This document shows positions 9,876 to 52,215 of a stretch of 64,000 nucleotides of DNA, in pieces. The notes below the pieces were generated by a model, which made no database searches, was not told the origin of the DNA, and saw nothing but the letters and a program-made list of their open reading frames with translations. Numbering within the stretch: the stretch's first letter is position 1; each line of letters opens with the position of its first letter. Made by a program: the position numbers and the translations under genes. Origin of the DNA: Mariniflexile maritimum (GTDB lineage: Bacteria > Bacteroidota > Bacteroidia > Flavobacteriales > Flavobacteriaceae); contig NZ_WRPN01000002.1 of assembly GCF_009746565.1 (NCBI RefSeq), forward strand, positions 124,001 through 188,000, read 5' to 3'.

Positions 9876-9960
9876 GGGCGTGCCCACAAGGGTCGGGTTT
9901 TACGTTGTATCTTTTTTGTGAAAAAACAAAAAAGGATGCCACTTCAACCCCTCACGCAAA
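9876..9960. repeat. Putative dispersed intergenic repeat with internal hairpin
   Basis: A GC-richer segment stands out in AT-rich DNA: GGGCGTGCCCACAAGGGTCG at 9876-9895, then a perfect hairpin (CTTTTTTGT 9911-9919 with ACAAAAAAG 9926-9934), then GGATGCC and CAACCCCTCACGCAAA. I recall similar stretches recurring between genes in other Flavobacteriia, but I cannot check this here. It occupies almost all of the 5' leader between the -7 box at 9974-9981 and the glycosyltransferase start at 9868. Confidence 0.45.
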
Positions 9961-9973
9961 TTTTAAGCAAATT

Positions 9974-51310: not shown

Positions 51311-51602
51311 TTATTTTAATTATAATTTGGGTGTTACCCTCATTGGAAAACGTGCAAAATTAAAAAAAACTTTACAGTAATTCGTATTGGGCTTTTCGTT
51401 GCAATCTTTTGCTAAAAAGCAAAAGGGTTTTTACTTTAAATGTGTAACATTCACGAATTCCTTATTTTAAAAATAGTCATCAATGAGAAATCCTTAACGC
51501 AAACAATATAACGAATATACTGGGTTCGTATTTTAATTACAACGCAAGTTCGTTAAAGTTTTATGAAAGTTTGTGTAAATGGAACGGTTAATTTGGGTTT
51601 TT

Positions 51603-52192
51603 TAAAGAACACCCCTAAAGTCCCCTCAAGGGGACAACTTGATTGATGGGTTTTTGTGGGTAGTTTGGATTGAAAGGAATTGAAAAGATTGAGTTTGCCC
51701 ATTTTAAAAAGCACACCCCTGAAGTCCCCTCAAGGGGACAACTTGATTGATGGGTTTTTGTGGGTAGTTTAGATTGTAAGGAATTGAAAAGGTTGAGTTT
51801 GCCCATTTTAAAAAGCACACCCCTGAAGTCCCCTCGAGGGGACAACTTGTTTGATGGGTTTTTGTGGGTAGTTTGGATTGAAAGGAATTGAAAAGGTTGA
51901 GTTTGCCCATTTTAAAAAGCACACCCCTAAAGTCCCCTCAAGGGGACAACTTGATTGATGGGTTTTTGTGGGTAGTTTAGATTGAAAGGAATTGAAAAGA
52001 TTGAGTTTGCCCATTTTAAAAAGCACACCCCTGAAGTCCCCTCGAGGGGACAACTTGTTTGATGGGTTTTTGTGGGTAGTTTAGATTGAAAGGAATTGAA
52101 AAGGTTGAGTTTGCCCATTTTAAAAAGCACACCCCTGAAGTCCCCTCAAGGGGACAACTTGGTTGATAGGTTTTTGTGGGTAGTTTGAATGG
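51603..52192. repeat. Six-copy 104-bp tandem repeat array with conserved hairpins
   Basis: Six units in head-to-tail order; the marker TCCCCT starts at 51621, 51725, 51829, 51933, 52037 and 52141, a constant 104 bp. Each unit has a perfect stem GTCCCC/GGGGAC with a TCAA or TCGA tetraloop (copies 3 and 5 TCGA), then AACTTG-TTGATGG, GTTTTTGTGGGTAG, and an AAAAAGC-like end. The first and last are partial. Open frames on the minus strand are by-products: 104 is not a multiple of three and each copy shifts frame. The 51311-51602 stretch before it shows nothing I can identify. Confidence 0.9.
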
Positions 52193-52215
52193 AAAATAAG
52201 ATAATTTCAACTAAA

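Follow-up and report, generated by a model that had tools for sequence, protein, structure and literature searches.

Three described systems come closest to the locus analysed here. Intrastrand triplex motifs (TM; TM_ECO in E. coli) are hairpins whose purine arm meets a third strand; their stems span 6-15 and their loops 1-6. In E. coli they have been linked to instability, and no mobility functions or genes were reported near TM_ECO motifs (PMC4666352). REPs and REPINs are short tagged palindromes that stand solo or as inverted pairs, by a dedicated gene (PMC3116915, PMC3733652, PMC6006769), and both Pseudomonas REPINs (PMC3116915) and REPs (PMC3733652) form clusters in tandem with flanking DNA. 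Their CGTC class includes the Rickettsia palindromic elements, and no transposase is known for this class (PMC3733652). Thirdly, the DUF559 protein YcjD was placed in the PD-(D/E)XK superfamily with a profile that detects Vsr (PMC1189080).

The array described below is, as far as its sequence tells, a REP-cluster-like structure made of a putative intrastrand triplex motif. With TM/TM_ECO it shares a hairpin, a short loop, a mirror-image tag, intergenic position, some inverted pairs and presence in many genomes, and its copies lie within the stem (≥ 6) and loop (1-6) limits; unlike TM_ECO, it has a shorter stem and another sequence, is tied to a nuclease gene and occurs in tandem arrays. The tagged palindromes, their solo or paired arrangement by a dedicated gene and the tandem clusters that take in flanking DNA recall REP/REPIN-RAYT systems. 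In contrast to these, the partner is a Vsr-like PD-(D/E)XK nuclease rather than an HUH Y1 transposase, the tag is CACCCCT and mirrors the stem instead of belonging to the GTAG or CGTC superfamilies, and the element, unlike a RAYT REPtron, flanks none of the Y1 genes examined. Like the CGTC REPs (PMC3733652), it is also found in frame in genes. The partner protein resembles the Vsr/DUF559 nucleases (YcjD, 3hrl, I-Bth0305I) in fold and conserved acidic residues, whereas the accessible parts of the literature on these enzymes (PMC1189080, PMC12907096) hold no link to palindromic repeats. An association of DUF559 with palindromic repeats was likewise not found in the literature searched, as far as the accessible parts of the sources go, and within that scope the link to triplex motifs is new. 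The sequence GTCATTGCGAG, which we take to be the CGTC-type REP core, was found in none of the DUF559 loci examined.

The array and its element

The window, i.e. the whole 64-kb stretch analysed, is G000:C12:124001-188000 of a 3.66-Mb genome (G000, the host). TRF assigned the array a period of 104 with 5.6 copies, 95% matches, 0% indels and a score of 1068; the next longest period within the window was 81. The hairpins start at 51620, 51724, 51828, 51932, 52036 and 52140, a spacing of exactly 104, and the GTCCCC/GGGGAC stem with a TCAA or TCGA loop is present in all six copies (Table 1), in agreement with an earlier sequence-only reading that had claimed an exact period and a conserved hairpin. 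The 16-mer of the TCGA copies is a complete palindrome. In each unit a single triplex-motif hairpin is accompanied by ~75 bp of tail specific to the locus; unit six is incomplete and diverges in its tail after ~64 bases. Over the first 80 bases, copies 3 and 5 differ at one position, copies 2 and 4 as well as 1 and 4 at two, and copies 2 and 5 at three. Duplication inside the array, proposed in the earlier reading, is plausible, but the differences do not clearly prefer the two-unit block it invoked to one of three units.

The array occupies much of an intergenic interval of 905 bp (51311-52215). Minus-strand frames of 64-81 aa cross it; they translate the repeat in a phase that shifts from unit to unit, 104 being no multiple of 3; the array had been called non-coding, and rightly so. 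It had also been judged not to be a CRISPR array, and this candidate is rejected by near-identical units throughout and the absence of variable spacers. A structural RNA array, which the same reading had entertained, is not supported: shuffled sequences fold as well as a single unit does (z 0.64 for minus-strand RNA and 1.25 for plus-strand DNA), the tails vary from locus to locus, and an Rfam scan of the array gave no family at gathering score. An Rfam Flavo-1 RNA match lies elsewhere in the window, at 9887-9962 on the minus strand. We take the upstream neighbour to encode a HupE/UreJ-like protein and the downstream one a dCMP/cytidine-deaminase-like protein.

Table 1. Features of the array locus (window positions) and exact core copies in the host genome (contig positions).
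Feature	Position	Strand	Basis or remark
104-bp tandem array	51604..52186	.	5.6 units; TRF and unit comparison
Element copy 1	51610..51635	+	Tag CACCCCT-AAA and hairpin GTCCCC-TCAA-GGGGAC; triplex scan match 51611-51634, minus strand
Element copy 2 (TCAA)	51714..51739	+	Core match and triplex scan
Element copy 3 (TCGA)	51818..51843	+	Core match and triplex scan
Element copy 4 (TCAA)	51922..51947	+	Core match and triplex scan
Element copy 5 (TCGA)	52026..52051	+	Core match and triplex scan
Element copy 6 (TCAA), then partial tail	52130..52155	+	Core match and triplex scan
Upstream neighbour, 198 aa	52216..52812	-	ORF; 88-92% identical in five same-genus genomes
Downstream neighbour, 143 aa	50879..51310	-	ORF; adjoins HupE-like gene (assumed name) in G001, G003, G005
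Upstream region of downstream gene	51480..51575, approximate	-	Recognisable by eye in three sister species without the array
Exact core copies (4)	C1:218.8k		
Exact core copies (3)	C1:246.7k		
Exact core copies (6)	C1:257-259k		
Exact core copies (6)	C12		Window array
Exact core copies (3)	C23:256k		
Exact core copies (2)	C23:381k		

We scanned the window for class II triplex motifs under the published limits (6-15 triads, loops of 1-6 nt) and required the purine arm to contain 4 G or more. Exactly six perfect motifs were returned, all on the minus strand and one in each array copy, each with 6 perfect triads and loops of 2 and 4; no other perfect class II motif occurs in the 64-kb window, and five mononucleotide shuffles of it gave 0. 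One strand of the element could, from its sequence, fold into an intrastrand triple helix. The relation of tag to stem was measured on 152 palindromes near DUF559 genes, 56 of which carry a C-run directly 5′ of the stem. In these 56, the tag agreed with the reversed pyrimidine arm at a mean of 0.763, versus 0.516 (sd 0.026) with arms swapped and none of 1000 as high; examples of mirror pairs (arm/tag) are TCCCTCCT/ACCTCCCT, CCCCTCT/ACACCCC and TCCCTTCC/CCAACCCT. A direct-repeat model of the tag (0.572 versus 0.448 permuted, 0/500 as high) fitted more poorly than the mirror model, and across the full set of 152, with or without a tag, the mirror score reached 0.297, versus 0.213 on the other side. 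A third strand that matters would be expected to produce such mirror covariation. A different triplex motif, of 8 triads, lies at L024:976-1005 and suggests a second triplex-motif family in the genome.

A genome search for the unit, suggested earlier as a check, found full-length matches only in the array; what recurs at other loci, and in many genera, is a stretch of 26-30 bases near the unit start. The refutation set in the earlier reading, a unit found at no other locus, thus does not apply to this core, although the remainder of the unit is confined to the array. The core CACCCCT-NNN-GTCCCCTCNAGGGGAC has 24 exact copies at six loci of the genome, with a few mismatched copies at these loci and at three other places, and hairpin and tag in the form CACCCCT-NNN-GTCCCCTCRAGGGGAC lie at five further loci with different intervening DNA and also occur in other Bacteroidota. 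By the ORF lists the array loci are intergenic, so that copy number and position are those of the triplex class; core copies elsewhere adjoin other genes. The DNA between core copies is also repeated, in a sequence that differs by locus, with periods of 104, 141, 205-220, 98, 181, 145 and 101 over the core loci. As the tails differ from locus to locus while the core recurs, the element is common and the tails are local. The loci outside the window were picked for clustering of the element, so the count of seven long-period arrays with the element among eight is biased.

At L022:13952-16091 the element lies inside a 2.8-kb intergenic region rich in short-period repeats such as GGTTATTG. Two copies at L188 share sequence past the element and hence do not define its ends. 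Among the matches listed in other genomes, eight close inverted pairs have their tags outward (L179, L198, L211, L213, L222, L241, L262 and L278), at least five of them from Winogradskyella; their inner spacers are unrelated and measure 26-28 bases in seven pairs and 48 in L213. Unlike these pairs with variable spacers, whose organisation is REPIN-like, the window array is made of direct copies.

DUF559 genes at the palindromes

The exact element is present in at least 119 GTDB genome stretches, in at least 157 copies; genera among the matches listed include Winogradskyella, Algibacter, Flavobacterium and Pontibacter, the last from another class, Cytophagia. Among these matches, 26/157 copies lie within 150 bp of a DUF559 gene, 33/157 within 600 bp and three more within 3 kb, while 121/157 have no DUF559 gene in their stretch; 19/119 stretches contain one. 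The host DUF559 gene (121 aa, C23:380.7k) sits between inverted hairpin copies, an A-for-G variant 15 bp upstream and an exact hairpin 14 bp downstream. The same arrangement occurs in G043, with two exact hairpins, and in the same-genus genome G002, where one of the two is a variant; when G002 was compared with G001 for an empty site of the DUF559 unit, homology stopped at the neighbouring gene's stop. The gene-carrying form is palindrome-tag, DUF559 gene, tag-palindrome, in ~0.5 kb.

To this we add 56 standalone DUF559 loci from family genomes, drawn from the PF04480 matches, of which most but not all strong standalone ones were taken. The set omits L038 (a duplicate of L119) and genes of ≥ 460 bp from domain start to stop, and some of its genes, such as L067, form the end part of a longer frame. 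Tag-hairpin elements lie within 100 bp upstream in 18 cases and downstream in 19, dropping to 0-2 per 100 bp past 300 bp; within 150 bp they were found at 22/56 loci, at 16 on both sides, and the nearest tag points inward in 31/38 and outward in 7/38. Any GC-rich palindrome within 200 bp was counted upstream of 44 genes, downstream of 40 and on both sides of 37 (19/56 lack one on one or both sides), compared with 3, 3 and 0 of 51 in control windows 800-1000 bp away. A triplex motif lies within 250 bp of 26/56 DUF559 genes, on both sides of 16, versus 0/55 Y1 genes (Fisher 6.6e-10); the count is 25/55 without L034, which came via the element search, and 30/56 genes have no perfect motif in this range. 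DUF559 protein and hairpin sequence correlate weakly (Mantel r 0.23, p 0.001, n 47). Among 62 DUF559 loci, terminal inverted repeats scored above the 95% level of cross-locus pairs in 21 cases and above the 99% level in 5, a weak test because the control pairs have the same hairpins.

At the genome level, the element (≤ 1 mismatch) occurs in 14/149 family genomes. All 14 have a DUF559 match, versus 57/135 others (Fisher 1.5e-5), the one in G171 being weak, in a long frame and not standalone; a strong standalone DUF559, from a list of 38 genomes compiled by hand, is present in 13/14 versus 25/135 (p 3.8e-8). Y1 transposases are also commoner in element genomes (11/14 versus 48/135, p 0.002), an enrichment that weighs against the reading we favour, and the host genome has four Y1 matches. 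A Y1 (RAYT) transposase acting in trans might therefore move the elements as REPs, with DUF559 genes as passengers, and the tandem REP clusters with flanking DNA of RAYT systems (PMC3116915, PMC3733652) would fit this. We consider it unlikely. The tag-hairpin was found at 0/26 RAYT-like and 0/29 IS200-like genes, searched up to 1.5 kb on each side with the IS200-like gene ends approximate, as in the triplex count, and two Y1 genes in L309; element and triplex motif being missing at all Y1 genes examined, Y1/RAYT is not supported as a cis partner. Y1 genes were found in 0/119 element stretches among the matches listed, using a profile from 21 mostly IS200-like proteins. Moreover, 10/25 RAYT-like genes have inverted repeats of other sequence above the 99% level of cross-pair controls, as at C23:395296 in the host.

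The RAYT-like genes with inverted repeats of their own (L009, L302, L309, L311, L312, L313, L315, L317, L319 and L320) show types such as GCTAGCGCGAGC...GCTCGTGCC and ACCTCACAGG...CCTGTGAGGT. A small Y1 transposase-like gene at L029:4729-5280 stands between what are presumably cas9-like and cas2/cas1-like genes.

All four of the associated proteins scanned match Pfam DUF559 (PF04480) at 99-102 bits, against a cut-off of 20.6. A structure model (mean pLDDT 83.3) matched the endonuclease-like protein 3hrl (E 2.4e-7) and the I-Bth0305I homing endonuclease domain (E 1e-3), and E. coli Vsr weakly (E 0.39). Residues D55, E66, D68 and H72 are invariant in 11/11 DUF559 proteins, which suggests an active nuclease.

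DUF559 domains also lie in frame inside larger genes, which we take to encode LeuRS, MetH and a dehydratase. The LeuRS-like gene carries the domain at one site in the host (G000:C12:65634-65942, L030), G001, G004 and others; further LeuRS-like loci compared at this site are L062, L063, L065, L066, L071, L074, L078 and L346-L375. The site motif could be read in 22/30 loci, with 8 not parsed. In G002, G003 and G005, of the same genus, this site holds short inserts only, e.g. VIASEAKQS, which we assume to resemble other translated palindromic repeats. The presence and absence of the domain across genomes suggest insertion. A palindrome lies upstream of the in-frame domain at 7/8 LeuRS loci and on both sides at one; our detector found none at the two loci with the domain in MetH-like genes (L080 and L085). 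DUF559 is also fused ahead of a threonine-dehydratase-like protein (L177:3390-4709, L266:6659-7999 and L172:5201-6532). In L177 and L266 the linker contains the window's hairpin sequence, translated as TPLKSPQGD; in L172 the same peptide comes from a variant hairpin.

These contexts bear on a further reading, to which we give little credence: DUF559 could be a host repair or housekeeping nuclease acting on hairpins, which gather near its gene for regulation or by hitch-hiking and spread by other causes. Its predicted Vsr-like fold would suit such a role, as would the SOS response of Caulobacter without a methyltransferase, which needs a DUF559 protein (PMC12907096). Against it stand the varied contexts of DUF559, in LeuRS-like and MetH-like genes and before a dehydratase-like one, and, in other phyla, its position between genes resembling operon partners.

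Outside Bacteroidota, the link of DUF559 to the motif is also seen in some Alphaproteobacteria, a cyanobacterium and Deinococcus, and at ycjD of E. coli. Of 35 plasmid records with a DUF559 match, 12 were analysed (gene ends guessed in the three without annotation). A triplex motif lies within 250 bp at 6/12, on both sides at five, and none was found past 250 bp within 1.5 kb at the 12 loci; the hosts with the motif are Qipengyuania, Sphingomonas, Sinorhizobium meliloti, Pseudanabaena and two Deinococcus. Palindromes with a stem of ≥ 7 were present on one side or both, no more than 200 bp away, at 10/12 plasmid loci versus 4/24 control windows. In E. coli K-12 MG1655, TM_ECO 9 (1351205-1351239; listed in PMC4666352) is 167 bp away from the end of ycjD, which is a DUF559 gene; chance expectation for such proximity is 0.003 for 18 sites, post hoc and at a single locus. 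By eye, a TM-like hairpin lies over the ycjD stop codon, and the interval to TM_ECO 9 repeats part of the ycjD 3′ end.

Origin of the array and its meaning

The interval between the HupE-like and deaminase-like genes (names assumed) holds no array in G001, G003 and G005, which are of the same genus and have the same gene order; it measures 484, 344 and 212 bp respectively, with flanks not alignable to single base against the window. G002 and G004 have a different gene after the HupE-like one and are therefore uninformative. Absence from the three sister species suggests a recent origin of the array. Terminator-like sites number 8 in the array region on both strands, versus 1.7 (sd 1.6) in shuffles, and lie on the gene strand in 4/6 units. 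A role in transcription attenuation, raised by the earlier reading, is possible, and the array may cause weak transcription termination between the neighbour genes; that selection keeps it there as a cis-regulatory attenuator or terminator is nevertheless very doubtful, given the three sister species without it, the other genes that the element adjoins elsewhere, the weak T runs and unit folding no better than shuffles. The array probably has no dedicated function of its own; its best reading is tandem amplification of a REP-like element together with flanking DNA, not an RNA array.

Long-period tandem arrays carrying the element were found in 0/119 GTDB stretches (among the matches listed) and 0/20 stretches of the family genome G129; a 67-bp array with two element copies lies in L238. 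Since the element occurs elsewhere without such arrays, it does not by itself explain tandem build-up, and these counts led us to reject the idea that the element generally builds up in long-period tandem.

The explanation that we favour, and think probable as a whole, combines a REP-like triplex-motif element, mobilisation by DUF559 and tandem copying provoked by folding. The DUF559 nuclease would recognise and nick the folded element ends, and would move gene-less copies in trans. A single copy may have landed between the two neighbour genes; there the folded element would stall replication or be nicked, and re-copying of the element with the adjacent 75 bp would give the 5.6 direct units. 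The same tandem build-up, with other adjacent DNA, could have taken place at other loci of the genome. We put forward more tentatively, and with rather less confidence, the wider proposal that DUF559 proteins are dedicated mobilising nucleases of intrastrand-triplex palindromic repeats across phyla, YcjD/TM_ECO included, and hence a third kind of REP system.

A specific gene family at such palindromes provides a named candidate enzyme. If the proposal is true, a REP system would be driven not by an HUH transposase but by a Vsr-like enzyme recognising triple-helical ends, and a DNA triple helix would be the recognised end structure of a mobile element. Even essential genes could then receive in-frame insertions of the DUF559 system, which could also seed tandem arrays.
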